A stretch of DNA of 64,000 bases from Opitutaceae bacterium (lineage in GTDB: Bacteria; Verrucomicrobiota; Verrucomicrobiia; Opitutales; Opitutaceae): the NCBI GenBank assembly GCA_027490995.1, contig JAIXWY010000003.1, positions 434,001 to 498,000 on the forward strand, in the 5' to 3' direction. The notes below the pieces were generated by a model. That model did not search any database, was not told where the DNA came from, and saw only the letters and a program-made list of their open reading frames with translations. The position numbers were made by a program, and so were the translations under genes. Positions 13,217-26,479 of this stretch are shown here, in pieces. Each line of letters starts with the position of its first letter. Position 1 is the first letter of the stretch.

Positions 13217-14530
13217 ATGGCCGCAGTTCTCGGACTCGACATTGGATCCTCTTCGGTGATCGCCGGGCTCCTCGATGGACGCCGGGTCCTAGCGGAGTCG
13301 CCGCGCGCATTTTTCCGCACGCGGCATGACGGCGGACGGGCGGAGGTGGATCCTGAAGTTCTGCTCGCCGCCGTCGCCACGGCGATTCGCGGTCTGGGCG
13401 AGCGGGCGCGTCGCGTCGATGCGGTGGCTCTGGCCACGATGTGCCCGGCATGGGTCGCGCTCGATCGCGACGGAAAAGCGCTCACGCCGATTGTCACTCA
13501 TCAGGATCGACGCAGCGTGGCCGAGGCCCGGGGGTTGGAGGAGCGGATCGGCGCGGACCGGCACCTCGCGCTTTGCGGATGCCGACCCTTTCCCGGAGGC
13601 ATCAGCTCGACGACCTGGGCTTGGTTTCGGAAACACCAACCCGGGGCGTTGCGACGGGCTGACCTGGTCGGCCACTTGAACACCTTCCTGCACCGACGCC
13701 TGACCGGCGCCCGGGTAACTGATCCGTCGAACGCGTCCTTCACCGGGCTGTATCGCACGCTGACGCTCGACGGCTGGAGTGAAGAGCTCTGTGCGAATCT
13801 GGGCGTATCGGAGAAAGTGCTACCGGAGGTGGTGGATGCCGACGTCATCGGCGGCGGATTGACTCGGGAGGCGGCGCGGCGGCTGGGCCTGCCGGCAGGA
13901 TTGCCGATGCTGACCGGGCTGATGGATGGCAGTGCCGGGATGCTTCTGGCCGGGGCGCGGGTTGGGCAGCTGTTCAACGTGGTTGGCTCGACCGATGTTC
14001 TTGCCCTGTGCACCGACCGTCCTCGCCCCCATCCGCAGCTCCTGACGCGGGCGCTGGGAGTCGGGCGGAAGTGGCTGCAGGTGAGCACGCTCGCGGCGAT
14101 GGCATCGGCGCTTTATTGGGCCCGAGAGCAGTTCTTTCCGGAATGGTCGCTGGAAGACTTTCAGCGTGAGTTGCGGACCCTGAGTCGCCGTGGCCCGCGG
14201 CCCGGCTGCACGGTGCGCTTCGCTCCCTATCTCGCCGGCGAGCGCACGAGCATTGAACAGCGGCAGGGAGCCTTCACTGGACTCACCCTCGCGACCACGA
14301 GAATGGATCTGCTGTCGGCGATCATCGAGGGACTCACCGCGGCCAGTGCGGAGCGCTTGCCGCTGCTGCGCGCCACCGGTACGGCGTTGCGCCGGACGGT
14401 GGCGGTTTCGGGAGGGGCCGATCGGCTCGACCGTCTCATGCATCGCGACTGGCCCGGGCGCTGGCAGTATCGGCCGGTGACCGACGCGACGATGCGCGGC
14501 CTGGGCTTGCTGACCCCACGGGCGCGTTGA
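13217..14530 (+). CDS. FGGY-family carbohydrate kinase
   Basis: ATP-dependent sugar kinase, 437 residues, shorter than the usual 480-500. N-terminal ATPase lobe GLDIGSSSVIAGL; VTHQDRRSVAEA and FPGGISSTTWAWF at the substrate side; LTGLMDGSAGMLL, FNVVGSTDVLALC and the FGGY_C signature AVSGGADRLDRLMHRDW. The segment after this signature is abbreviated, so the C terminus looks trimmed. Sugar specificity is not readable. The next gene is a RhaE-type aldolase/dehydrogenase, so a ketose such as L-rhamnulose is a reasonable guess. Confidence 0.88.
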   Translation: MAAVLGLDIGSSSVIAGLLDGRRVLAESPRAFFRTRHDGGRAEVDPEVLLAAVATAIRGLGERARRVDAVALATMCPAWVALDRDGKALTPIVTHQDRRSVAEARGLEERIGADRHLALCGCRPFPGGISSTTWAWFRKHQPGALRRADLVGHLNTFLHRRLTGARVTDPSNASFTGLYRTLTLDGWSEELCANLGVSEKVLPEVVDADVIGGGLTREAARRLGLPAGLPMLTGLMDGSAGMLLAGARVGQLFNVVGSTDVLALCTDRPRPHPQLLTRALGVGRKWLQVSTLAAMASALYWAREQFFPEWSLEDFQRELRTLSRRGPRPGCTVRFAPYLAGERTSIEQRQGAFTGLTLATTRMDLLSAIIEGLTAASAERLPLLRATGTALRRTVAVSGGADRLDRLMHRDWPGRWQYRPVTDATMRGLGLLTPRAR

Positions 14531-14615
14531 GCGCTGCACGCATCCGCCGTGAAGGAGGGCAAAGCTCACGCCTGCTCGCTTCTTATCGCGATATAGAGCA
14601 ACAGTTTAACGCATA

Positions 14616-14653
14616 TTGGTAGAATGTGATCGGATTCTAGCACAATCTATCAC
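14616..14653 (+). promoter_or_regulatory. Promoter with overlapping operator before the aldolase/dehydrogenase gene
   Basis: In a locally AT-rich stretch, TTGGTA (14616-14621), 16 bases, TAGCAC (14638-14643) gives a promoter. An imperfect inverted repeat, GTGATCGGATT (14626-14636) against AATCTATCAC (14644-14653), surrounds the -10. This is the layout expected for a repressor site; the regulator is not in the immediate neighbourhood. Confidence 0.45.
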
Positions 14654-14710
14654 CTAATCGAGGGCGTCCCGCGTTGGGCGCGATTTCGCTGCCTGATCCG
14701 GCTTTTTCCC

Positions 14711-16903
14711 ATGAAGTCCTATTCCTACGTCAATTATCTCTGGGACGACGCAAAGGCGACGTCTCTCGATCCGGTCGGTCGCTTGATCTACCGCTCCAAC
14801 CTGCTCGGCAGCGATCAGCGCATTACGAATACCGGTGGCGGCAACACCTCGGCCAAGTTGCCGGAGAAAGACCCCCTGACGGGCCAGACCGTGGAGGTGC
14901 TTTGGGTGAAGGGTTCGGGCGGGGATCTTCGCACGAGCACGCGGGAGAACTTTTCTTCGCTCTATCAGTCGAAGCTGATCGCGATGCAGGCGTTGTATGC
15001 TTCGCGTGCGGACAAGGGACTTAAGTCGCCGGCGGAGGATGACATGGTGGCGATGTACGCGCACACGACGTTCAACCTGAACCCGCGGGCTTCGTCGATT
15101 GATACGCCGCTGCATTCGTTCCTGCCGGGTCGGCATGTCGATCACATGCACCCGAATGCGATCATCTCGATCGCGGCGTCCGCGCGGTGTGAGGAACTGA
15201 CGAAGGAGATTTTTGGCGGTGCGATGGCCTACGTGCCGTGGATGCGTCCCGGCTTCGAGTTGGGTCTGGCGATGCAGGAGATCGCGCGCAAGCAACCGGC
15301 GATCAAGGCGATCATGATGGGGCAGCATGGCTTCATCTCGTGGGATGATGATGAGAAGGTGTGCTACATCCGTACGCTGGACCTGATCGAGCAGGCGGCT
15401 CAGTACATCGAGAAAAAGTATCAGGCGAAGGGCGGCGACGCGACGGTGTTCGGGGGAGCGAAGTATCACACGTTGGCGGACGAGCCGCGTCGCGCGGCCT
15501 TCGCCGCGATCCTGCCATGGCTGCGTGGTCAGGTCTCGGCGCAGCGGCGTTTCATCGGCACGATTCAGGATGATGAGCGCATCCTCCGTTTCGTGAACTC
15601 GAAGGATGCGGCGCGCCTGGCTGCTTTGGGCACGTCCTGTCCGGATCACTTTCTGCGGACGAAGATCAAGCCGCTCTACGTGGACTGGAACCCGCAGGCC
15701 GAAGACCTCGCCGCTCTCAAGGCGAAGCTGGCGGCGGGGATCACCCAGTACCGCAAGGACTACGCCGCGTATTACGAGTCGTGCCGGCGTCCGAACTCCC
15801 CGGCGATGCGTGACCCGAATCCGACCGTGGTGCTGATTCCGGGCCTTGGCATGATCGCGTGGGGCAAGGACAAGTCGGAGTCGCGGGTCACGGCCGAATT
15901 CTACAACTGCGCGGTCGAGGTGATGCGCGGGGCCGAGGCGATCGATCGCTACATTGCCCTGCCGCAGCAGGAGGCTTTCGACATCGAGTACTGGCTGCTT
16001 GAGGAGGCCAAGCTCAAGCGCATGCCGGCGGAGAAGGAACTGGCGCGGCAGGTCGCCGTCGTGGTCGGTGCCGGCTCCGGCATTGGTCGTGAGACGGCGC
16101 TGCGGTTGTCCCGTGAGGGCGCGCACATCGTGGCTGTCGACCTGAATGAGGCGGCGGCGCAGGCGACCGCGAAGGAGATCACGGACCGGCTCGGCCTCGG
16201 TATCGGGGTGGCGGGTAGCGGCATTTCCGGCTGCGGTCCGGCCGTGGGCTTGGCGGCGAACATCACCGACCGCGCCAGCATCCGGCGCATGCTCGATCAA
16301 GTGGCTCTGGCCTATGGTGGCTTTGACGCAATTTGTGTCACCGCTGGCATCTTCTTCCCGTCCGATCGGACCGGGCACATCCCGGACGACAAGTGGGCCG
16401 CCACCTTTGCGATCAACGTCATGGGCAGCTACCTGGTCGGTGATGAGGCGGCGAACACGTGGCGCGAGCAGGGGCTCAGTGGCAGCCTCGTGCTCACGAC
16501 TTCCGCGAACGCCGTCGTGGCGAAGCGTGGGTCGGTCGCCTACGATGCGTCGAAGGCCGCGGCCAATCACGTCGTGCGCGAACTGGCGATCGAGCTGGCC
16601 CCGCTCGTGCGAGTGAATGCCGTGGCGCCGGCGACGGTGGTGAAGGGATCGACGATGTTCCCGCGCGAGCGCGTGATCAGCTCGCTGGCCAAGTACAACA
16701 TCGCCTTCGCGGAAGACGAGTCGACGGACTCGCTGGTCCAGAAGCTGGCGCAGTTCTACGCGGACCGTACGCTGACGAAGTCACCGATTACGCCGGCGGA
16801 TCAGGCGGAAGCCTACTTGTTGCTCGTGACCGGGCGGCTTTCGAAGACCACGGGGCAGATCATTCCCGTGGACGGCGGACTCCACGAGGCCTTCCTGCGC
16901 TGA
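14711..16903 (+). CDS. Bifunctional rhamnulose-1-phosphate aldolase/L-lactaldehyde dehydrogenase-type protein
   Basis: Fusion of a class II (AraD-like) aldolase and a short-chain dehydrogenase, 730 residues, as in the RhaE/RhaW-type enzyme that cleaves L-rhamnulose-1-phosphate and oxidises lactaldehyde. Aldolase part (about 1-430): TNTGGGNTSAKL, zinc-ligand region DHMHPNAIISIAAS and MMGQHGFISW. Dehydrogenase part (about 445-730): VVVGAGSGIGRETALRLS, CVTAGIF, serine in TTSANAVV, YDASK and a C-terminal TGQIIPVDGG. No gap or frameshift at the join. Follows the FGGY kinase after a 180-base regulatory region, together a small deoxysugar-catabolic locus; isomerase and transporter are absent here. 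Confidence 0.9.
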   Translation: MKSYSYVNYLWDDAKATSLDPVGRLIYRSNLLGSDQRITNTGGGNTSAKLPEKDPLTGQTVEVLWVKGSGGDLRTSTRENFSSLYQSKLIAMQALYASRADKGLKSPAEDDMVAMYAHTTFNLNPRASSIDTPLHSFLPGRHVDHMHPNAIISIAASARCEELTKEIFGGAMAYVPWMRPGFELGLAMQEIARKQPAIKAIMMGQHGFISWDDDEKVCYIRTLDLIEQAAQYIEKKYQAKGGDATVFGGAKYHTLADEPRRAAFAAILPWLRGQVSAQRRFIGTIQDDERILRFVNSKDAARLAALGTSCPDHFLRTKIKPLYVDWNPQAEDLAALKAKLAAGITQYRKDYAAYYESCRRPNSPAMRDPNPTVVLIPGLGMIAWGKDKSESRVTAEFYNCAVEVMRGAEAIDRYIALPQQEAFDIEYWLLEEAKLKRMPAEKELARQVAVVVGAGSGIGRETALRLSREGAHIVAVDLNEAAAQATAKEITDRLGLGIGVAGSGISGCGPAVGLAANITDRASIRRMLDQVALAYGGFDAICVTAGIFFPSDRTGHIPDDKWAATFAINVMGSYLVGDEAANTWREQGLSGSLVLTTSANAVVAKRGSVAYDASKAAANHVVRELAIELAPLVRVNAVAPATVVKGSTMFPRERVISSLAKYNIAFAEDESTDSLVQKLAQFYADRTLTKSPITPADQAEAYLLLVTGRLSKTTGQIIPVDGGLHEAFLR

Positions 16904-16992: not shown

Positions 16993-17793
16993 TCAGCGGG
17001 CGGGCGCGGCGGGAAGGGCGGCGAGCGCCTCCGCGGCGCGTCGTTTTGATAGTGCGTCGTGCACCTCGCGTTCGGGCAGAGCGAGGCCGCGGGTGAAGGC
17101 GGTGCGAGCGTCTGCGATCCGTCCGCTTGAGCGGTAGACGAAGGCCAGTTCGACTTGGTGGCCGACCGCGTCTGGAGCCAAGGTGGCCGCGCGCTCGAGG
17201 TGGCGTACCGCCTCGGCGAGGGAAGCCTTGGGCAGGCCGCCGAAGAACAGTTGGACGAGGAACCGTCGGGTCATGCCCAGCTTAGCCACCTCGTAGTGCC
17301 AGCGACCGAGCACGTGGTGAGCCCAATCGTAGTCGGGATTGAGGCGGAGTGCCTCCTCGGCGAATTGGTGAATCTGGCGGGAATGACGCACCTTGGCTTC
17401 CGTGTCGCCGTACAACCCAAGGTTGCCGTGGCAGATGGCGATGGACAGCACGACTTCGGCGTTCGTGGGATCGACGGCGTACGCCTTCTCAGCGTACGAG
17501 AGAGCCGTCTCGGCGAGCCGCCGCTTTTCCTCTGGATCGGAAAGGAGAAATGACTGATCGGAGTATTGCCGGGATATCTTCTGAAGGATGACGGCATCGC
17601 GCGGCTTGGCGGCGTCGGCAGCGAGGAAGAGCGGGAGCGCGGTCGACGGATCGAGTCGGCGCTCGGCCTCCATCCCCTGGCGTACCAGTTCCTCGACTGA
17701 GGTTACCGCGTTCGCGTAACCCGGAAGTGCGAGGAGGAGCAAGATCGCCGCGATCGCCTGACGGAACGGACGGTGGACTCTGCGCGGCGTCAT
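16993..17793 (-). CDS. Exported TPR-like protein
   Basis: 266 residues from the ATG at 17793. N-terminal signal peptide (basic start, hydrophobic AIAAILLLLALPGYANA). The rest is helical TPR-like repeats: SALSYAEKAYAVDPTNAEV-type units with RLAETALSYAEKAYAVDP, QFAEEALRLNPDYDWAHHV, HLERAATLAPDAVGHQVELA and SSGRIADARTAF. Resembles the RMD-type TPR proteins. It is the last gene of the leftward lipid cluster (37 bases after the second CFA-like gene), suggesting a periplasmic scaffold for that system; function otherwise unknown. Confidence 0.82.
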   Translation of the reverse strand: MTPRRVHRPFRQAIAAILLLLALPGYANAVTSVEELVRQGMEAERRLDPSTALPLFLAADAAKPRDAVILQKISRQYSDQSFLLSDPEEKRRLAETALSYAEKAYAVDPTNAEVVLSIAICHGNLGLYGDTEAKVRHSRQIHQFAEEALRLNPDYDWAHHVLGRWHYEVAKLGMTRRFLVQLFFGGLPKASLAEAVRHLERAATLAPDAVGHQVELAFVYRSSGRIADARTAFTRGLALPEREVHDALSKRRAAEALAALPAAPAR

Positions 17794-17830
17794 GGTGGAG
17801 AATGGAGGCGGTTCGAGGCTCGCGCGGGGC

Positions 17831-18844
17831 TCACTTCTGGCGCCGGAACAAATAGTGGCTGACGAGCCACTCCTCGCCTTTGCGGTAGCCCCACAACTCG
17901 GCGCACGCCATGTAAAACACCCGCCAGTAGACCCACCAGCGGGTGACCGCGGCCTTCCCGTAGGTTTTCTCGAATAAGGGGAGGATCTCAGCCCGGTGGC
18001 GGTCCATGTTCTGGAGCCAGTGCTCGGCGGTCTGTTGGTAGTGGCGACCGTTGACCTTCCAGTCCTGGACGAGCTGGAGGTGCTCGTCGAATGCGGGGAG
18101 CAGATCGTGCGCGGGCATCTGTCCACCGGTGAAAAAATACCGTGCCATCCAGTCCGTCGCATCGCGCGGGACGAAGTGGTAGCTGAGTTGGTGGTGAGTG
18201 AAGATATGGACAAAGAGCAGGCCGTCGGGCTTCAGCCAGCGGGCAACATTCCCGAGGAGCCGCTGGTAGTTCTTCATGTGCTCGAACATTTCCACCGACA
18301 CGACGCGGTCGAACTGCGCGCCGGGCAGGTCGAAGGCATTCATGTCGCAGGTGATGATCTGTAGATTGCTGAGTCCGCGGCGCCGGGCCTCGGCGTCGAT
18401 GTACTCCTTCTGGGTGCGCGAGTTGGACACCCCGGTGATGCGGGAGTGCGGGAAGCGCTCCGCGAGGTAAAGTGAGAGGGAGCCCCAGCCGCAGCCGAGC
18501 TCGAGGACCGACTGCCCGTCTTCGAACCGTCCTCGCTCGACGTAGAGGGCGAGCATCGCCTCCTCGGCCTCGTTAAGCGACTCCGCGCCTGTCTGGTAGA
18601 AACAGCCGGAGTACTTCAGGCGGCGGCCGAGACAGAGCCGGTAAAAATCGGTTGGCACCTCGTAATGTTGCTCGTTCGCGGCGCGGGTCTCTTCCGCGAT
18701 GGGCCGCGATTTGAGATCAGCGACGTAGGCGGCGCGGTTGTACTGGGAGGTTTCCTCGCGAATGCGCTGGGCAAGGAGGCGGCGGATGCCGATGCGAATC
18801 AGCCAGTCCGGCAGCAGGTTTTTCTCGAGCAGGGAATCGATCAT
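17831..18844 (-). CDS. CFA-synthase-like SAM-dependent methyltransferase
   Basis: 337 residues from the ATG at 18844. The central class I methyltransferase fold has VLELGCGWGSLSLYLAERFP (SAM motif I), ITGVSNSRTQKEYI, FDRVVSVEMFEHMKNY and LFVHIFTHHQLSYHFVP. The upstream EQHYEVPTDFYRLCLG matches the entry of the cyclopropane-fatty-acyl-phospholipid synthase superfamily, but the long N-terminal domain of true CFA synthase is missing and the C-terminal half is specific to a subfamily better known for N-methyltransferase-like relatives in plants. Substrate unknown; with a true CFA synthase four genes upstream, a second acyl-chain or head-group methylation is the likely role. Confidence 0.87.
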   Translation of the reverse strand: MIDSLLEKNLLPDWLIRIGIRRLLAQRIREETSQYNRAAYVADLKSRPIAEETRAANEQHYEVPTDFYRLCLGRRLKYSGCFYQTGAESLNEAEEAMLALYVERGRFEDGQSVLELGCGWGSLSLYLAERFPHSRITGVSNSRTQKEYIDAEARRRGLSNLQIITCDMNAFDLPGAQFDRVVSVEMFEHMKNYQRLLGNVARWLKPDGLLFVHIFTHHQLSYHFVPRDATDWMARYFFTGGQMPAHDLLPAFDEHLQLVQDWKVNGRHYQQTAEHWLQNMDRHRAEILPLFEKTYGKAAVTRWWVYWRVFYMACAELWGYRKGEEWLVSHYLFRRQK

Positions 18845-18872
18845 GGAAAGAGGAGGGGCGAGTCCGGCGGAG

Positions 18873-19667
18873 TCAGGAACCGGAGCGGCGCGGAAACCAC
18901 GGAAAGAACGCCGAGGTGGTTTGCTGGTAGCGGCGGTAGGCATCGCCCCGTGAACGCAGGGCCTGCTGTTCGGTCAGCGGGATGCCGGTGACGCGAAGCA
19001 GCAGGTGCAGCATGACCGCCGGGCAAATCACCGAGATCCACCCCCAGGGTGAGCCGCAGGCGAAGATGAAAAAGGCGACCCAGACCAGCCACTCGAAGAA
19101 ATAGTTCGGATGGCGACTGTAGCGCCACAGGCCGCGGTCGCACACTGCACCGCGGTTGGCCGCGTTTCGTTTGAAGGCGGCCAGTTGGGCGTCGGCGAGC
19201 GTCTCGCCGCAGAGCGCGATGAACCAGAGTAGCGCGCCGGCGACCTCCAAGGGGTGCAGTTCCGTGCGTACATTCAGACTGGGGATCAGGAAGGGTACGC
19301 TTAGGATCACCAGCGAGAGGGCCTGGATCTGGTAGAACTTGAACATCTCCCAGGCGAAGTTCGCCTTCCACCGCGTGCGCATCTCGAGGTAGCGCCCGTC
19401 CTCTTCCGGATGATGGCTGGCAACCCGGCGAAGCAGATGGCTTCCCAGTCGCACGCTCCAGAGCACCGCGAGGGCCGCGAGGAGCACGCGGCGCATCGGC
19501 CAGCCCCCAGCGAAGGCAGCATAACCCGCAGCAATCGGAGCGAAGGCGTAGGCCCAAGCAACGTCGACCACGCTGTAGTTGTCCACGCGACGCGCGAACC
19601 AGAAGACGAGTGTCATCAGGACGCCGCACCCCACGAGGGCGAAGAGGAGGAGAAGCCAGACGCTCAT
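18873..19667 (-). CDS. DUF1295 membrane protein (steroid 5-alpha-reductase-like)
   Basis: 264 residues, about six or seven membrane helices beginning with SVWLLLLFALVGCGVLMTLV. The C-terminal part has the family core RGLWRYSRHPNYFFEWLVW and later LRVTGIPLTEQQALRSRGDAYRRYQQTTSAFFPW. The family is related to 5-alpha-reductases and isoprenyl methyltransferase-type membrane enzymes, so reduction of a double bond in a lipid is plausible. Its start overlaps the end of the DUF2062 gene by four bases and it is 28 bases before the CFA-like gene. Confidence 0.9.
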   Translation of the reverse strand: MSVWLLLLFALVGCGVLMTLVFWFARRVDNYSVVDVAWAYAFAPIAAGYAAFAGGWPMRRVLLAALAVLWSVRLGSHLLRRVASHHPEEDGRYLEMRTRWKANFAWEMFKFYQIQALSLVILSVPFLIPSLNVRTELHPLEVAGALLWFIALCGETLADAQLAAFKRNAANRGAVCDRGLWRYSRHPNYFFEWLVWVAFFIFACGSPWGWISVICPAVMLHLLLRVTGIPLTEQQALRSRGDAYRRYQQTTSAFFPWFPRRSGS

Positions 19668-20227
19668 AAGACGGATGACTCGGGCGACGACGAGGCGGAG
19701 GGGAGACGGCGGGCGACGCGCCGGATCACGGGACGCAGCAGCCGGTTCAGGCTAAAGACGAGAATCGGCAGGGTGAGCAGCCACGCCGTGAACGCATGCA
19801 CGCCGGCCATGCCGAAGCGCTGCAAGAACTCGGTGAAGCTCGCGTCCCGGAATGTTTGCACCAGCACCCCGATCGAGAACGGCAGGGGCTCGGCACCCCA
19901 GATTCGCTCGCCGACTCGGATATAGAGGACGATCAGCACCAGCTGGACCGGTCCGAGCAGCTGATTTAGAGTCTGGAGCAGCGGCTGGTTTAGGCGCAGG
20001 GCGAGACCAACCACGAGATTGAGGAGGCTCGTGAAGCCGAGGAAGGGAAAGAGGGAAAGTCCGGTTCCGAGGGCGAGCGTGTAGCTGACCTTGTCTGCGG
20101 TAATTCCCTGGGTGAGTAGGGCAATGATCGGATCGCCGAGGCGGCGACGCCAGAAACCGCGCCGGGGCGTGGCGGTGGGCTCGTTGGCACCGCGGGCGGG
20201 TTCGGAAAGGGGAGCGACTGAGGTCAC
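19664..20227 (-). CDS. DUF2062 membrane protein
   Basis: 187 residues if started at the GTG at 20227, which overlaps the stop of the preceding gene as GTGA; longer in-frame starts would run through that gene. Cytoplasmic N terminus, then LALGTGLSLFPFLGFTSLLNLVVGLALRLNQP, which fits the DUF2062 core, and a last membrane segment FTAWLLTLPILVFSLNRLL with a basic tail. The molecular role of the family is unknown. Translationally coupled on both sides inside the lipid cluster. Confidence 0.8.
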   Translation of the reverse strand: MTSVAPLSEPARGANEPTATPRRGFWRRRLGDPIIALLTQGITADKVSYTLALGTGLSLFPFLGFTSLLNLVVGLALRLNQPLLQTLNQLLGPVQLVLIVLYIRVGERIWGAEPLPFSIGVLVQTFRDASFTEFLQRFGMAGVHAFTAWLLTLPILVFSLNRLLRPVIRRVARRLPSASSSPESSVL

Positions 20228-20562
20228 GAGGTGCGACGCAGTAGGACCGATGAAAACGGCGCGTCGCTCGGAACGCGGAACAGTTCGCGCAGACAGTACA
20301 CGGCCATGGCGATGTTGCCGAAGAGCAGGATCGCGACGAGCCACAGCACCCGGGCGACGACCCCGGTCTCCTTGTAGGCCACCCAGATATAGAACGTGAG
20401 GAAGCCCCAGTAGGCATCAAACAACGTGGCGATGAACCAGCGGTCTCGGGAGGCGGGCGAGCCGATGAAGTCCCAAAGGGCCTGTCCGAGCGATGCCCAG
20501 CTGGTCACCCAGAGCATTGAGGCCAAGACCACGAGGAAGAAGAGACGAAGGAAGAGGATCAT
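20224..20562 (-). CDS. DUF1475 small membrane protein
   Basis: 112 residues from the ATG at 20562, three predicted membrane helices (LRLFFLVVLASMLWVTSWA; LFDAYWGFLTFYIWVAY; VLWLVAILLFGNIAMAVYCL). The motif RDRWFIATLFDAYWGF and YIWVAYKETG matches DUF1475, a family I recall next to CFA synthases. Function unknown, possibly a membrane partner. It follows the CFA synthase by 38 bases and is coupled to the DUF2062 gene. Confidence 0.82.
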   Translation of the reverse strand: MILFLRLFFLVVLASMLWVTSWASLGQALWDFIGSPASRDRWFIATLFDAYWGFLTFYIWVAYKETGVVARVLWLVAILLFGNIAMAVYCLRELFRVPSDAPFSSVLLRRTS

Positions 20563-20600
20563 GGCCGCGGGGTGGGGGACTTTTCTGGGGGGCGCGGCGG

Positions 20601-21917
20601 TCAGCGCAGCGCGAGGTTGTTCGGCCGGGTGTGGAGGGTCTGCACGACGGAGATGTTGCGCATCGCGAAGGCGGACTCGCAGTAGCAGAGGTAGTAGTGC
20701 CACTTGCGCACAAAGCGGTCGTCGAAGCCGAGGCGGCGGACCTCGTCGAGCCGCGCGTGGAACGTCTCACGCCAGGCTCGGAGCGTGCGCGCGTAGTCGT
20801 GGGCGAGGTCGTCGAGGTGGTGCAGGACGAAGCCACCGTGGCGGCTCATCAGTTCGTTGACGCGGTTCAGCGACAGGAGCAGCGAGCCGGGAAAGATGTG
20901 CTTCTGGATAAAGTCGACCCCGCGTCGGAATTCGCGGTAGCGGGAGTCCGGGCACGTGATGAATTGGAGGGCGACAAGACCACCGGGCCGCAGTCGGGCG
21001 TGCAGCGTCCGGCAGAAGTCCGGCAGGTACGCGTGGCCGATTGCCTCCATCATCTCGATCGAGACGATCTTATCGAACTGTCCCTCGATGTCCCGGTAGT
21101 CTTGGAGCCGCACCTCGATGCGTGACTCCAGTCCGGCGGCAGCGATCCGGCGGCGCGCGAGATCGTACTGCTGCTGCGAAATGGTCAGGGACGTTACGCG
21201 GCAACCATGGTGGGTGGCAGCGTGGAGGGCCCAGCCGCCCCAGCCGGTGCCGATCTCGAGCACGTGATCGGAGGGGGAAAGCTGCAGGCTACGGCAGAGA
21301 GCCTCGTTTTTCTCCCGCTGCGCGTCCGCCAGGGTGGTGGCTTCGTTTGCGTAGCGAGCGGACGAATACATCATGGACTCGTCGAGGAACAAGGCAAAGA
21401 AGTCGTTGGAGAGATCGTAGTGCCGAGCGATGTTGCGTCGGGCGGTGCGGCGCGAGTTCGGCTGGAGGAGGTGCTCGATGCGGTGGGCGAAGCGCAGCAG
21501 GTTTAGTCCCCAGGCGCGGGCGCGCCCGGCCGTCGAGCCGGAGAGCGTGGGGGCGTGTTCAACATTGAGCATGAACCACGCGAGCACCGACGGCAGGTCG
21601 GGTGTTTCCCAGTCGCCGTCGATAAACGACTCCGCGAAGCCGATATCGCCGGCGAGGACGCAGCGACGGAAGAAGCTCTCGCGGCGCACGCGCAGCGTGG
21701 CGATGGCGGACAGGCCCAGGGGAAGGTCGGGAGCGACCGGTTCGCCGGGTTCGCCGCAGTCGACGTGACCGCCCTCCGGCAACTCAATTCGCAGGCGACC
21801 GCGCGGCATCGCGCCGAAGGAGTTGAGCACGAGCCGCCGGTGGAACGACGGGCTTGCCGGGGGGCTGAAGTCCGAGGCGTCGGAGGGGCTGGAAGAAACG
21901 GGAGAGGAGTCGCTCAT
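20601..21917 (-). CDS. cfa: Cyclopropane-fatty-acyl-phospholipid synthase family protein
   Basis: 438 residues, full length for the family. Adds a methylene from SAM across double bonds of unsaturated acyl chains in membrane phospholipids. N-terminal lipid-binding domain (LSAIATLRVRRESFFRRCVLAGD, EGGHVDC), then ARRNIARHYDLSNDFFALFLD, MMYSSARY, SAM motif VLEIGTGWGGWALHAATHHG, VTSLTISQQQYDLARRRI, FDKIVSIEMMEAIGH and QFITCPDSRYREFRRGVDFI. Substrates other than simple cyclopropanation (for example methylation toward branched or furan fatty acids) are known for near relatives. Preceded by DUF1365 and an unusual duplicated junction (21913-22285). Confidence 0.93.
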   Translation of the reverse strand: MSDSSPVSSSPSDASDFSPPASPSFHRRLVLNSFGAMPRGRLRIELPEGGHVDCGEPGEPVAPDLPLGLSAIATLRVRRESFFRRCVLAGDIGFAESFIDGDWETPDLPSVLAWFMLNVEHAPTLSGSTAGRARAWGLNLLRFAHRIEHLLQPNSRRTARRNIARHYDLSNDFFALFLDESMMYSSARYANEATTLADAQREKNEALCRSLQLSPSDHVLEIGTGWGGWALHAATHHGCRVTSLTISQQQYDLARRRIAAAGLESRIEVRLQDYRDIEGQFDKIVSIEMMEAIGHAYLPDFCRTLHARLRPGGLVALQFITCPDSRYREFRRGVDFIQKHIFPGSLLLSLNRVNELMSRHGGFVLHHLDDLAHDYARTLRAWRETFHARLDEVRRLGFDDRFVRKWHYYLCYCESAFAMRNISVVQTLHTRPNNLALR

Positions 21918-21953
21918 GCGTCGGACGTCGTAGGCTGGGTAATCAAGGAAGCG
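21913..21953. repeat. Imperfect direct repeat, copy A (at the cfa start)
   Basis: Begins ctcatgcgtcgga and contains taggctgg; about 80 percent identical over roughly 41 bases to copy B 332 bases away. The cfa start codon lies in it. Confidence 0.65.
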
Positions 21954-22244
21954 TGGCAGGGCGGTCTGGGCTGGCGAGAGCTAGTAGAATCGCGGCAGAA
22001 CTAACAGAATCACGGAAAGGTGCAGCGCGCATGAGACCTTGGCAGATTAGCCGACTTTCCGTGAAGGAGGCGTGAAGAGACGATCGAAAGTCTGTGAGAT
22101 GCTCCGGGGGGAACGCCGCGCGTTGGCGTTTCGACTCGACCGGCGCCGCGAGCGATGGATCGGTGGTGACTCCGGGGTGATGGCGAGCCTGGCGTCCCGG
22201 AGCCCAACGGGTTTTTTAGGTAGGCGCGACAAGGGGCGGGAGCT
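21954..22244. other. Non-coding segment between cfa and DUF1365 genes
   Basis: About 290 bases between the two repeat copies, with no convincing gene. It holds a near-tandem pair AGAATCGCGG/AGAATCACGG (21987-22015), the inverted repeat CACGGAAAG...CTTTCCGTG, and on the plus strand a weak GC hairpin followed by six Ts (gggttttttagg, about 22209-22220). It looks like an insertion into a formerly tight gene junction. Confidence 0.5.
22011..22063. repeat. Inverted repeat with perfect 9-bp arms
   Basis: CACGGAAAG (22011-22019) and CTTTCCGTG (22055-22063), 35-base centre. Could be an operator pair or a long-loop hairpin. Confidence 0.5.
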
Positions 22245-22285
22245 CTCATGCGTCGGATGCCTTAGGCTGGAGAATCGAGGAGTGA
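22245..22285. repeat. Imperfect direct repeat, copy B (at the DUF1365 end)
   Basis: Partner of the repeat at 21913. On the minus strand it encodes the last residues of the DUF1365 protein (QPKASDA) and a stop that overlaps an ATG as ATGA. Confidence 0.65.
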
Positions 22286-23061
22286 GGACGGAGCAAGTCG
22301 CGCTGGTCCGCGGCGCGGGCGGACTTACGGAACCAAGGAACGGACTTCAGGAACAGGCGTAGGGCATGCCAATGGATGAGGGTGATGATGCGGAGGGTGA
22401 TCAGGGGATAGAGAACCGTAAACCACGCGAGACGCGAGTCCGTCAAGGGCCGCGCCGACCCGGTCAGGCGGCTGGTCAGGGTACGCTCCTCGCCGATGTA
22501 GTCGTCGATCTGGATCGCCATCGCGCTGTCCGGTACCGGAAGGAGGAAGTCGAAGGCCACGTCCACGTCGGAAAAGGGTGAGACGTAGAAGTGCTTGGGT
22601 ACCCTGAGGTGAAAGCGCCCGGCCTCGTCGCGGGTGGAGGGGCCGAGGAAGAACGGCTTCATCTCGCGGAAGGTGTTGGTGACTTCCGGGATCGCGGCGA
22701 CGGGTTCGCCGGTGCGATCGAAGCAGAAGTAGAATGAGACGGGATTGAAGAGGAAGCCGGCGACGCGGGGCAGGGTGATCAGGACGACGCGCCCGCCGGA
22801 GAGATCGACCCCATGTTGCTGTAGGACGGCTTGGACGCGGGCCTTGAGGGGGGCGCCGGCGGGCTGGTTGGTCGGGAGGAAGTCGGCGTCGCGAAAGGAG
22901 TAAAGTGCGTGTCCCTCGCTGGAAAACAGGCTCAGACGGTGGTCCAGCGCGGCAAGCTCATCCAGATCGATCGCGAAGAGAAAAATGCGGTAGCTGAAGG
23001 CGTGTCGCCGGGGGGAGAAGCGGGCGTGCATGACTTGGCACTCGTAGAGACAGGAGTTCAT
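22246..23061 (-). CDS. DUF1365 protein of the CFA cluster
   Basis: 271 residues. Family of unknown biochemistry that accompanies CFA synthases in many bacteria and is fused to them in some plants. Recognisable by YECQVMHARFSPRRHAFSYR at the start, VAGFLFNPVSFYFCFDRTG and HLRVPKHFYVSPFSDVD; one membrane-associated segment near the C terminus (LAWFTVLYPLITLRIITLIHWHALRLFL). The FAD-dependent amine-oxidase-like partner usually found with it is not in this window. First gene of the leftward cluster. Confidence 0.9.
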   Translation of the reverse strand: MNSCLYECQVMHARFSPRRHAFSYRIFLFAIDLDELAALDHRLSLFSSEGHALYSFRDADFLPTNQPAGAPLKARVQAVLQQHGVDLSGGRVVLITLPRVAGFLFNPVSFYFCFDRTGEPVAAIPEVTNTFREMKPFFLGPSTRDEAGRFHLRVPKHFYVSPFSDVDVAFDFLLPVPDSAMAIQIDDYIGEERTLTSRLTGSARPLTDSRLAWFTVLYPLITLRIITLIHWHALRLFLKSVPWFRKSARAADQRDLLRPHSSILQPKASDA

Positions 23062-23227: not shown

Positions 23228-26200
23228 TTAGAACTTAATCCGCATGCCGATCTGGGCCTGCCAGCGCGACACCGGGGTCTCGTCTACCGTCACCGGCACG
23301 CCATTAAGCGTGGTGGAGTTGAAGACGTAGTTCCACTGGCCCTTGCCGTTGTTCGCGGTCGGATTGAGGGTCGCTCCGGCGACCGCGCGGCGGTAGGAGA
23401 ACGGAACCTCCTCTTGGATGCCCCAGTCGCTGTCGAAGAGGTTCGCGAAGTTCAGGATGTTCGCGAAAACCTCGGCGCGGACCGACTTGAAGAGCGGGAT
23501 CTGCTGGGTGAGCTTCAGGTCGACCGTCTGCAGCCACGGGGACGTTTCGGAGTTACGCGCGGGATTGGAGCCCTTGAAGTCCTTGAGGGACGTGGTCTCG
23601 ACGAAGCGGAAGAACGCATCGCGCTGAGCGGTGTCGGCCCACGCCACGCGCGTATCATCCGGACCCGTCGGGACGTAGAGCAGGTCGTTGAAGGTCAGGC
23701 CGTCTCCGTTCGCGTCACCGTAGAAGACCCACGAGTACGGACGGCCGGTGCGGCCGATGTAGCTGAGGTTCACGGTCGTCGGGGCGTTCTTGACGAACTC
23801 GAAGCGCCGCGTGATCGACAGCACGACGGTATCCTTGATGTTCGTGTTCGAGACGGAATCGGTGTTCTCGTTCGGATTGAACACCGCGCGGTTCGAGTAG
23901 TTCGACAGCGCCACGGAGGACGTCATCGGGCTGACCTCGGTCGCGTTGCCGTTGGTCCACGAGGCGGACCAGGCCCAGTTGTTCTTCATCGGGCGGCTCA
24001 GGCTGATCGTGACGCCGCTGGCCTCGCCCTTGTCGGTGTTCGTGAGGTAGAGCACGTCGGCGAAGTTCGAGACGCGACGACGACCGGCGATGTTGCCGCT
24101 GGTCGAGCTGACGATGCTGGCGGCCGAGCCGAAGCGCAGGCGGCCGTCGGGAGCGAGGCCGGTGCCGTCGCCGTCGTTGGCCTGACGGTAGTTCAGGAAC
24201 TCGGTGTTCAGGCCGACATCGACGTCGTGGTAGTAATACTCCACCGTCAGGGTCGTATCCAACCACGGCAGCTGGTGGTCGATCGCGATATTGCTCTTCC
24301 ACAGCGCGGGCTGACGGAAGCTAGGATCGGTGATGTTGACGTTGGGGGGCGGATTGGCGGTGCCGGGGACGGACTGCGTGGCCGCGTTCGGGTTGAACGT
24401 GATGAGCGGACGCTCGGCGACGGCCGCGGTGTAGTTGTAGACCGCGCCGGCATTCGAGAAGGCGTTCGACAGCCACACGGCCGGGTTACGGCCTTGGAAG
24501 AGTCCGAAGCCGCCGCGGACCTGGGTCTTGCGCTGGGTCTCCATCTCGTACGTGAAGCCAAGGCGCGGAGCGTAGGTCGGGTTGCCGTCGTTGGTGGTGT
24601 TGTTGCGGGTGATCGGGATGCCCTTCGAGTCGACGAAGCCTGCCGTGGCAAAGCCCGGGGCGATCGGGGGAGCCTCGTCCACCACGGGCAGGTCGAAACG
24701 GATACCGGCCATGACCGTCAGTTGCGGATTCGGACGCCACGTGTCTTGCACGAAGCCGGCCAGAGCCGTGTAGCTCCAATTGGCGATGGCGTCGTTGATC
24801 GAGAACCCAGGGTAGGGCTTCTGGAGGATAAAGTTCGTCGGCGGGGTGCCAGCGAGGAAGGTCGCGGGCGAGGCGAACGTGTAGTTGCCCATCGTGTTTT
24901 GCACGAAAGCGTTCGAGTAGTCGGTGGTGATCTGCTCGCCGCCCACCGTGAAGGTGTGGTCGCCGAAGGTGTAGTCGCCGGAGAGCTTGAACTGCTTTTC
25001 CTTGCTGGTGAGGCGGTTCAGCTGACGGCTGTTTTCGGTACCGAAGATGATCGCACCGCTGGTGATCGTGGCGCCGGTATCGAGACGACGGCCGGTCAGG
25101 CCCTCGACGCGGACCATGGGGAACGGCGTGCCGCGATTGGCGGGCGTACCGTCGTAGTCGGTCATCGACACCGTGGCTTCCGTGCGGAAGTCGGGGGTCC
25201 ACTGGCTGTTGAGCTGCGCGGTGTAGCTATCCGTGTTGCGCGGTTGGTCGAACCAGTGATTGCTCAGCGACGTGGCGGTCGTGCTGCTGTAGTTCGCGAA
25301 GCTCGTATTCTGGCCGTAGTTGCGGCGGTAGGTGGCGGCCAGACGGTGATCGCGGGAGATATTCCAGTCGATCTTGCCGATGTAGGTTTCCTGCTCCTGC
25401 AGGTTGGTGCTCGGGCCGGAGAGGGTGCCCGGGTCGTAGTTCTGCGACTTCACGCGGGCGATGATCGAATCGATCGCGGCCAGTCCGGCGGCATCGGGGA
25501 CGAACGTCGCCTGCGGCGGGACCGTTTCACGCTCCAGCTTGTCGTAGGAGAACGAGAAGAAGAGTTTGTTCTTGATGATCGGACCGCTGAAGGTCGTGCC
25601 GAAGTTCTTCTCGTCGAAGGCTTCCTTCACGCCGGTGAGGGGATTCTTGGCGCGGAGGTTCTCGTTACTCATGCGGTAGTACACGCTGCCCCGGTACTTG
25701 TTGGTGCCGGAACGGATCACCGCGTTGATGACGGCGCCGGTGAAGCCGGCGTAGCGGACGTCGTAGGGAGAGAGCTGGATGCTCAGGGTTTCGAGGGCAT
25801 CGAGCGGAACCGGGCTGGCCAGAGACGAGAATCCGTTGGAATTGAGGCCGAATGGGTCGCCGGCCTGGACGCCGTCGATGAGGAACGAATTGTAGCGGAA
25901 GTTCTGGCCTTGGGCGCTGAGCTGGCCGCCTTGGTCGAGCGAACCGAGGAACATGCGCGAATCGAGACGGGCCACGTCCTGCACGCTGTTGCGGACCGTC
26001 GCGGTGTTGGCGATCGCGTCTTCGTCAAAGCTGCTTCCCGTGCCCATCTTGCCGGTGCCGAAGGTCAGGTCCTTGTCGGCCGACACGCTCACGGCCTCGA
26101 GGACGACGACATCGGAGGCGACAACGAAGGAGATGTCTGCGTTGGCACCGAGCTCGAGGAAGATGTCGCCTTTCTCTGCGGCGGAGATCGTTGATGACGA

Positions 26201-26479
26201 GACCTTCACGCTGTAGGGACCGCCGACGCGCAGGCCGGAGACGGAGTACTGACCGTTTGCACGGGTCAGGGTCGTCGCCACCGTGCCGGACGGCTGGTGA
26301 GTCACAGTCACGGAAGCCCCGGAGACGGGGTTATTGGCTTTGTCGGTGACAAAACCGCCGATGCCGGCGGTGGTGACACCTTGGGCAATCAGGCCCGGAG
26401 CGGCGAAAAGGGCCGCTGCGAGGCCGAGCAGGGCAAACCAGCCGGCCTTGGCCGTGCGGAGAGCGTGGGTTGGATTCAT
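23228..26479 (-). CDS. TonB-dependent outer-membrane receptor with carboxypeptidase-like regulatory domain (Oar-like)
   Basis: 1083 residues. Signal peptide (AGWFALLGLAAALFAAPGLIAQ), an N-terminal carboxypeptidase-regulatory-like beta domain (about 35-110; NPVSGASVTVTHQPSGTVAT, LRVGGPYSVKV), a plug domain (DVARLDSRMFLGSLDQGG, RYNSFLIDGVQAGDPFG) and a large beta barrel ending with F (QIGMRIKF). The layout is that of Oar/RagA-like receptors rather than siderophore FhuA types, so a bulky ligand such as peptide or glycan is possible. Stand-alone transcription unit with its own terminator. Confidence 0.93.
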   Translation of the reverse strand: MNPTHALRTAKAGWFALLGLAAALFAAPGLIAQGVTTAGIGGFVTDKANNPVSGASVTVTHQPSGTVATTLTRANGQYSVSGLRVGGPYSVKVSSSTISAAEKGDIFLELGANADISFVVASDVVVLEAVSVSADKDLTFGTGKMGTGSSFDEDAIANTATVRNSVQDVARLDSRMFLGSLDQGGQLSAQGQNFRYNSFLIDGVQAGDPFGLNSNGFSSLASPVPLDALETLSIQLSPYDVRYAGFTGAVINAVIRSGTNKYRGSVYYRMSNENLRAKNPLTGVKEAFDEKNFGTTFSGPIIKNKLFFSFSYDKLERETVPPQATFVPDAAGLAAIDSIIARVKSQNYDPGTLSGPSTNLQEQETYIGKIDWNISRDHRLAATYRRNYGQNTSFANYSSTTATSLSNHWFDQPRNTDSYTAQLNSQWTPDFRTEATVSMTDYDGTPANRGTPFPMVRVEGLTGRRLDTGATITSGAIIFGTENSRQLNRLTSKEKQFKLSGDYTFGDHTFTVGGEQITTDYSNAFVQNTMGNYTFASPATFLAGTPPTNFILQKPYPGFSINDAIANWSYTALAGFVQDTWRPNPQLTVMAGIRFDLPVVDEAPPIAPGFATAGFVDSKGIPITRNNTTNDGNPTYAPRLGFTYEMETQRKTQVRGGFGLFQGRNPAVWLSNAFSNAGAVYNYTAAVAERPLITFNPNAATQSVPGTANPPPNVNITDPSFRQPALWKSNIAIDHQLPWLDTTLTVEYYYHDVDVGLNTEFLNYRQANDGDGTGLAPDGRLRFGSAASIVSSTSGNIAGRRRVSNFADVLYLTNTDKGEASGVTISLSRPMKNNWAWSASWTNGNATEVSPMTSSVALSNYSNRAVFNPNENTDSVSNTNIKDTVVLSITRRFEFVKNAPTTVNLSYIGRTGRPYSWVFYGDANGDGLTFNDLLYVPTGPDDTRVAWADTAQRDAFFRFVETTSLKDFKGSNPARNSETSPWLQTVDLKLTQQIPLFKSVRAEVFANILNFANLFDSDWGIQEEVPFSYRRAVAGATLNPTANNGKGQWNYVFNSTTLNGVPVTVDETPVSRWQAQIGMRIKF

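Follow-up and report, generated by a model that had tools for sequence, protein, structure and literature searches.

What do the seven genes at positions 16993-23061 of this DNA make together? The window, by which we mean the whole stretch of 64,000 nucleotides analysed here, comes from an Opitutaceae bacterium of the phylum Verrucomicrobiota (assembly GCA_027490995.1, contig JAIXWY010000003.1). The original prediction saw a membrane-lipid modification cluster of seven families on one strand, with four-base overlaps in the middle, and both points hold: there are seven intact open reading frames, all on the minus strand, all seven proteins exceed the curated Pfam cut-offs, and the two overlaps read GTGA at DUF1475/DUF2062 and ATGA at DUF2062/DUF1295. 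The seven-gene observation is thereby confirmed, and since the gene order recurs in relatives and, without DUF1475, DUF2062 and the TPR gene, on an Acinetobacter plasmid, the cluster is not a product of chance. Homology, residue signatures, linkage and co-occurrence together make it very probable that the cluster, with a ufaD gene and a desaturase gene elsewhere in the genome, directs the synthesis of methylated furan fatty acids on membrane phospholipids. Two S-adenosylmethionine (SAM)-dependent acyl methylases had been taken to imply more than cyclopropanes, with a furan among the guesses, and this proved well founded, as the genes match the furan fatty acid pathway. The pathway itself is not an undescribed one, as had been proposed, since UfaM, UfaD, UfaO and FufM are all described (PMC7380195); taken as a whole, the earlier interpretation is partly supported.

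The larger of the two CMAS-family methylases had been called a full cyclopropane fatty acid (CFA) synthase. Across 75 aligned sequences (38 UfaM, 33 FufM and 4 CFA), two sites read E-A and Q in all 38 UfaM rows and E-H and H in all four CFA rows, and the printed alignments of three solved CFA synthases from the PDB show EH and H too; the conserved CFA histidine we take to be the bicarbonate-site residue of the E. coli enzyme. The window protein has E-A and Q at both sites, not the CFA-type residues. A tree of these sequences, built by a quick method, placed the 38 UfaM rows on one branch (support 90) and the 33 FufM rows on another (support 100). By BLAST the protein is 39–42% identical to the UfaM encoded in the ufaD-ufaO-ufaM triplet of Rhodopseudomonas, and it is 33–35% identical to a third CMAS gene of that genus, read in two genomes. 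An ordinary CFA synthase is rejected on residues, tree position and gene context, and the gene is best read as a candidate for a UfaM-type SAM-dependent C-methylase, acting on a cis-monoene chain. The residue signature separates UfaM from the cyclopropane synthases that currently go under the same name. In seven relatives UfaO and UfaM share a single reading frame (G038, G047, G115, G056, G118, G124 and G121; loci L086, L089, L091, L092, L107, L108 and L109).

Which protein, then, would close the furan ring? The DUF1365 protein is best read as a UfaO candidate for this O2-dependent step: it is 37–40% identical to Rhodopseudomonas UfaO (BLAST), and 19 positions of UfaO show 97% identity or more across 40 rows that include Rhodopseudomonas. 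The flavin-dependent partner, UfaD, had been noted as missing. It is indeed absent from the cluster, but the claim is rejected at the level of the genome, where ufaD is found on another contig (C14:1358207-1359496; 66% identical to the ufaD of the relative G088). A search with a relative's ufaD returned this single match, a clear UfaD, which is 38–40% identical to Rhodopseudomonas UfaD by BLAST; the broad Pfam Amino_oxidase model has eight matches in the same genome. A fatty-acid desaturase (C14:1356981-1358165; 75% identity) lies directly before it.

The identity of the second CMAS gene was pursued because its best matches among solved structures are the coclaurine (E 3e-77; PDB 6gkv) and pavine (E 6e-67; PDB 5kn4) N-methyltransferases, and because Arabidopsis AT4G33110 is kin of FufM, with 37.87% identity, much as the DUF1365 protein AT1G30130 is 26.42% identical to UfaO (PMC10940516). 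CFA synthases among the solved structures reach E 4e-31 at best. The window protein is 48–50% identical (E 1e-104 to 2e-96; 48–49% over about 335 aa by BLAST) to one gene in six of seven Rhodopseudomonas genomes, namely R. palustris XCP, 2.1.18 and JSC-3b, R. pseudopalustris, R. pentothenatexigens and R. faecalis; the seventh, R. rhenobacensis, has no gene matching at that strength. In XCP, 2.1.18 and R. pseudopalustris, where both places were read, the gene lies on a different contig from the ufaD-ufaO-ufaM triplet, which fits the wide spacing of the locus tags RPA0924 and RPA2571-2569. It is 27% identical to XCP UfaM (BLAST), and the published FufM is 26% identical to R. sphaeroides UfaM (PMC7380195). 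FufM methylates the mono-methyl to the dimethyl furan fatty acid, and a strain of Cereibacter sphaeroides produced the dimethyl acid when given no more than fufM (PMC7380195). The original prediction was right about the methyltransferase family, while the actual branch is that of FufM and coclaurine N-methyltransferase rather than of CFA, and the gene is best read as a FufM candidate for a SAM-dependent second methylation of the furan.

Two further observations concern this methylase. A FufM-like gene, 48% identical to that of the window, lies on a contig of IMG/VR viral class (IMGVR_UViG_3300049491_000933; L139:3101-4252) beside HD phosphohydrolase-like, DHFR and PrkA kinase genes, which match phage protein families; no phage structural gene was seen on that contig, and the gene is possibly a phage-borne lipid methylase. 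Plant coclaurine N-methyltransferases are the nearest solved kin of the window protein (L249, L252, L255, PDB 6gkv), which raises the question of their origin from a plant furan fatty acid methylase.

Do these genes travel together? The co-occurrence analysis that had been suggested covered a sample of 145 Verrucomicrobiota genomes, the window's own included. UfaO and UfaD are found in the identical 32 genomes (Fisher p 7e-33; the p-values ignore kinship), which span 17 families. UfaD, FufM, strong DUF1295 and DUF1475 are all confined to these 32: FufM (above 300 bits) occurs in 25 of them and in 0 of the 113 others (p 4e-22), DUF1295 (E <= 1e-40) in 29, one copy being broken, and again in 0 of 113 (p 2e-27), and DUF1475 in 11 of the 145 genomes, 11/11 with UfaO (p 1e-8). 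The FufM cut dropped matches under 300 bits, the best of which below the 25 kept genes has 109 bits, while a methyltransferase match of some kind (E <= 0.001) turned up in 128 of the 145 genomes; for UfaD we dropped G032 (E 9e-5) and weak second hits, and for DUF1295 four genomes whose only matches were at E 7e-7 to 7e-5. Loci were read for 31 of the 32 genomes (G086 was left out), and ufaO comes after ufaD in 26 of these. Three relatives (G060, G045 and G091) have the order desaturase, ufaD, ufaO, ufaM, DUF1475, DUF2062, DUF1295, fufM, TPR; G088 and G102 keep it through fufM, although ufaD and ufaO are separated there by other frames and no TPR match follows. On the Acinetobacter plasmid, one of five plasmid regions hand-picked from 312 matching records, the order is desaturase-ufaD-ufaO-ufaM-DUF1295-fufM.

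Furan fatty acids are antioxidant lipids of the membranes of purple bacteria, and work on C. sphaeroides and R. palustris has demonstrated the UfaM-UfaD-UfaO-FufM chemistry (PMC7380195). In the present organism the desaturase would supply a cis-monoene chain, to which UfaM would add a methyl group from SAM to give a methyl-branched trans-monoene; UfaD would form the methylated conjugated diene, UfaO would insert oxygen from O2 and close the furan, and FufM would add the second methyl group, yielding a dimethyl-furan acid. The product would serve as an antioxidant that shields the membrane from singlet oxygen and oxidants of that kind, and DUF1295 would take part in the same physiology, perhaps as an NAD(P)H reductase. 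In the published system the mono-methyl furan acid vanishes upon exposure to singlet oxygen, which is lethal to cells that cannot make the acid (PMC7380195). The cluster suggests that dimethyl furan fatty acids are made in Verrucomicrobiota, a phylum for which a limited literature search found no earlier report of this.

Could a shorter or a different pathway account for the same genes? It is improbable that methyl-branched or methyl-diene chains are the end products, with UfaM and UfaD at work and DUF1365 closing no furan. Such a reading could appeal to the modest identity of the DUF1365 protein to Rhodopseudomonas UfaO and to the cofactor and mechanism of UfaO, which are reported as unknown (PMC7380195), but it sits badly with the occurrence of UfaO and UfaD in the same 32 genomes, with the 19 nearly invariant UfaO positions and with the presence of FufM, whose known substrate is a furan. 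Still less probable is an N-methyltransferase role for the FufM-like protein, with an amine head group or a small amine as its substrate and no relation to furans. Plant coclaurine and pavine N-methyltransferases methylate an alkaloid nitrogen, and it is the closeness of these solved structures that lends the idea its appeal. We set it aside since the Rhodopseudomonas gene scored higher, at 324–351 bits (312–321 by BLAST) against 264 for coclaurine N-methyltransferase, the programs being different; moreover, FufM is confined to genomes with both UfaO and UfaD (25/25 in the sample), and the relation of AT4G33110 to FufM points the same way.

An ordinary cyclopropane fatty acid operon beside unrelated membrane genes is the least probable reading, and we consider it very unlikely indeed. 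The larger methylase does match the CFA model PRK11705, but at 248 bits, far below the cut-off of 400, and the two CFA-conserved sites are replaced. Further points against it are the arrangement of the genes, the co-occurrence with ufaD, ufaO and fufM, and the lack of any further strong CMAS gene in the genome, where the two other hits score 30.7 bits (just above the cut-off of 27) and 22.9 bits.

Several points nevertheless weigh against the assignment to furan fatty acids. The pathway is transferred to an organism in which it is known here from genes alone, and ufaD lies outside the cluster in this genome as well as in G085 and G140. UfaM was found in 29 of the 31 genomes with loci read, with none in the read stretches of G018 and G125; the split between UfaM and CFA has a support of 90, below 95, with four CFA rows only, and the E-A/Q signature speaks for UfaM only, because the 33 FufM rows of the alignment keep E-H and H. 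The Rhodopseudomonas genomes used are strains other than CGA009, so that the names RPA0924 and RPA0923 are assigned by pattern and not by locus tag, and the third CMAS gene of that genus is 31% identical to XCP UfaM (BLAST) as against the 38% reported between RPA3082 and R. sphaeroides UfaM (PMC7380195). DUF1295 belongs to a wider family, with matches also in two controls, Lactococcus lactis and Methanosarcina acetivorans, that have none to DUF1365. As to regulation, the ChrR anti-sigma cupin (PF12973) has no match in the window's genome, whose assembly is 94.7% complete, there is no extracytoplasmic function (ECF) sigma factor gene in the cluster, and the exact form of a sigma-E-like motif is absent from the window, though the organism may use another consensus.

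The furan fatty acid genes belong to the core sigma-E/ChrR (ECF11) singlet-oxygen regulon (PMC6852236). Because the cupin, an ECF gene in the cluster and the exact motif are all lacking, this known regulation does not appear to transfer to the window, and given a genome without a ChrR match the control of the cluster probably differs from it. A simple scan found no sigma-70-type site. Elsewhere some loci look as expected for a sigma-E/ChrR response (PMC6852236): an ECF gene lies within the furan fatty acid locus of the relatives G035, G050, G087, G015 and G131, and sigma and anti-sigma genes lie near the furan fatty acid genes on Burkholderia, Shinella and Rhizobium plasmids. Further genes at the loci of some relatives and on proteobacterial plasmids encode lipocalin, chalcone-isomerase-like, SnoaL-like and peroxidase proteins.

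What is the role of DUF1295, which accompanies these genes across the sampled phylum as well as in Rhodopseudomonas and on the plasmids that were read? The family belongs to a superfamily that takes in NADPH enone reductases as well as methyltransferases. Pfam leans to the reductase side: the window protein exceeds the cut-off of Steroid_dh (PF02544; 30.4 bits, cut-off 22.6) and falls below those of ICMT (20.7 against 24) and PEMT (19.1 against 25), while in a profile search of the PDB the best match is an ICMT (4a2n, E 1e-4), with SRD5A (7c83) behind it at E 0.019; a structure model from the single sequence, with a predicted local distance difference test score (pLDDT) of 51.7, is too poor for a fold reading. 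DUF1295 lies immediately before FufM in 17 of the 23 phylum genomes that have both and in 5/5 plasmid records read, and it adjoins FufM or UfaM in 25/29 phylum genomes, in eight of them beside UfaM (seven upstream, one downstream). In Rhodopseudomonas a strong DUF1295 gene stands beside FufM in six of the seven genomes (6/6 with FufM), and the seventh, which has the ufaD-ufaO-ufaM triplet without FufM, has only a weaker DUF1295 paralogue that is common to all seven.

An obligate partnership with FufM was not upheld in the phylum, since DUF1295 is retained in six of the seven UfaO genomes that lack an intact FufM, in G121 as a broken copy. In that genome (L112:7144-8271) the broken DUF1295 is followed by a FufM fragment while ufaD-ufaO-ufaM is kept, so that both were lost together. 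It is also unlikely that DUF1295 is essential for the furan core: a triple mutant of C. sphaeroides needed no more than ufaM, ufaD and ufaO, the host's own DUF1295 content left aside (PMC7380195). Among 14 named control genomes DUF1365 occurs in one (Caulobacter) and DUF1295 in three (Caulobacter, Lactococcus and Methanosarcina), and because of these matches the DUF1295 family must be wider than the furan fatty acid pathway. A scan of the viral contigs gave no further DUF1295.

Outside the phylum, two earlier studies bear on this gene. Because a strong DUF1295 adjoins FufM in Rhodopseudomonas, RPA0923 is probably the DUF1295 gene; its deletion has been built singly and together with that of RPA0924, according to the strain table of PMC7380195, whose main text mentions RPA0923 six times, always in strain or plasmid lists and without a phenotype. 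In Chlamydomonas, the SAK1-dependent genes induced by singlet oxygen include CFA1, CFA2, DUF1365, DUF1295 and GPX5, and in another table CFA2 is listed as a coclaurine N-methyltransferase (PMC4067076), so that an algal DUF1295 is induced by this oxidant with the same set of families. A limited literature search found no paper joining DUF1295 with furan fatty acids, although an earlier mention in the sigma-E regulon is possible.

Singlet oxygen converts a furan acid into an ene-dione, and a saturated 1,4-dione can lose water and close to a furan. There is a speculative and rather unlikely possibility that DUF1295 is an NAD(P)H reductase that would turn the ene-dione into the saturated 1,4-dione, which would become furan again, in a renewable antioxidant cycle shared by bacteria and algae; for algae the idea draws on the joint induction of DUF1295, DUF1365 and CFA genes. 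In a weaker form of the idea, DUF1295 would merely clear the reactive ene-dione. If the cycle were true, the cluster would encode a catalytic, renewable lipid antioxidant rather than a sacrificial one. This conserved partner is the most interesting remaining point, and the deletion of RPA0923, its likely R. palustris counterpart, makes its role directly testable.

The other three genes appear to be patchy accessory additions. DUF2062 and TPR had been singled out as unusual, and so they are: in the loci read they occur in 12/31 and 6/31 phylum genomes, respectively. Where present they keep their places, DUF2062 directly after DUF1475 in 9/9 genomes with both and TPR after FufM in 5/6. The TPR protein has a probable signal peptide, judged by eye from its first residues. 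A second module in the window's genome (C14, about 60.4–63.6 kb; L126:6435-9561) has no methylase but holds genes for chalcone-isomerase-like, DUF1475, DUF2062, DUF1295 and lipocalin proteins. This suggests that DUF1475-DUF2062-DUF1295 act as a unit.

Features of the cluster and its upstream edge. Gene starts are likely starts, read from the sequence; identities given as candidates are best readings.
Feature	Position	Strand	Details
ufaO candidate (DUF1365)	22246..23061	-	271 aa, likely start 23061, PF07103 237.9 bits
Inter-genic gap ufaO/ufaM	21918..22245	-	328 bases
ufaM candidate (CMAS)	20601..21917	-	438 aa, likely start 21917, CMAS 284.2 bits
DUF1475 small protein	20224..20562	-	112 aa, ATG 20562, PF07343 32.6 bits
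DUF2062 protein	19664..20227	-	187 aa, GTG 20227, PF09835 31.0 bits
DUF1295 protein	18873..19667	-	264 aa, ATG 19667, PF06966 229.8 bits
fufM candidate (second CMAS)	17831..18844	-	337 aa, ATG 18844, CMAS 139.2 bits
TPR protein, accessory	16993..17793	-	266 aa, ATG 17793; RMD1-3 (PF21033) 41.1-42.2 bits, TPR_19 31.5-33.6 bits
Terminator-like hairpin	23202-23175	-	Strong; 12-pair stem with T6 behind it; between the preceding gene and the cluster

The long gap between ufaO and ufaM gave no match to the family models used and has a shorter equivalent in some relatives, G045 and G140 among them; the remaining gaps in the cluster are of 28, 37 and 38 bases. Since 11 terminator-like sites were found in the window against 4.1 expected, the weaker ones carry little meaning. 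Just before the cluster, at 23228-26479, lies a gene for a large outer-membrane beta-barrel with a carboxypeptidase-regulatory domain (PF25183, PF13620); upstream of ufaO, the relatives G045, G060 and G091 have desaturase and ufaD genes. On the other side, 13217-16903 on the opposite strand encodes an FGGY kinase and an aldolase/short-chain dehydrogenase fusion, by family for sugar catabolism, with no sign of a link to the cluster.

How does this arrangement compare with known systems? As in the pathway of R. palustris CGA009 and C. sphaeroides (Lemke et al. 2020, PMC7380195), the window's genome encodes members of all four enzyme families, with three in the cluster, and DUF1295 lies directly before FufM as it does in Rhodopseudomonas. 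In contrast to R. palustris, where fufM lies elsewhere, here it clusters with ufaO and ufaM. In contrast to both proteobacteria, the host belongs to another phylum, ufaD lies apart from ufaO and beside a desaturase, and DUF1475, DUF2062 and TPR are added, with no ChrR cupin found in the genome. Likeness to the sigma-E/ChrR (ECF11) regulon is seen in the relatives and plasmids with ECF or sigma genes at their loci, whereas the window's cluster has no ECF gene and its genome no ChrR match. The coclaurine and pavine N-methyltransferases (6gkv, 5kn4) are the nearest solved structures to the window's FufM, which nonetheless scores higher with FufM itself. The plant lipid-droplet proteins AtUFAMD1, AtUFAO1 and LIME1/AtFUFM1, proposed to make plant furan acids, are of the same families as those of the window, although in plants UfaM and UfaD are fused, there is no operon and function is inferred from homology (PMC10940516). 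Set beside these systems, the cluster appears to house an already described pathway in new surroundings, together with patchily distributed additions and a single conserved but unassigned partner, DUF1295.

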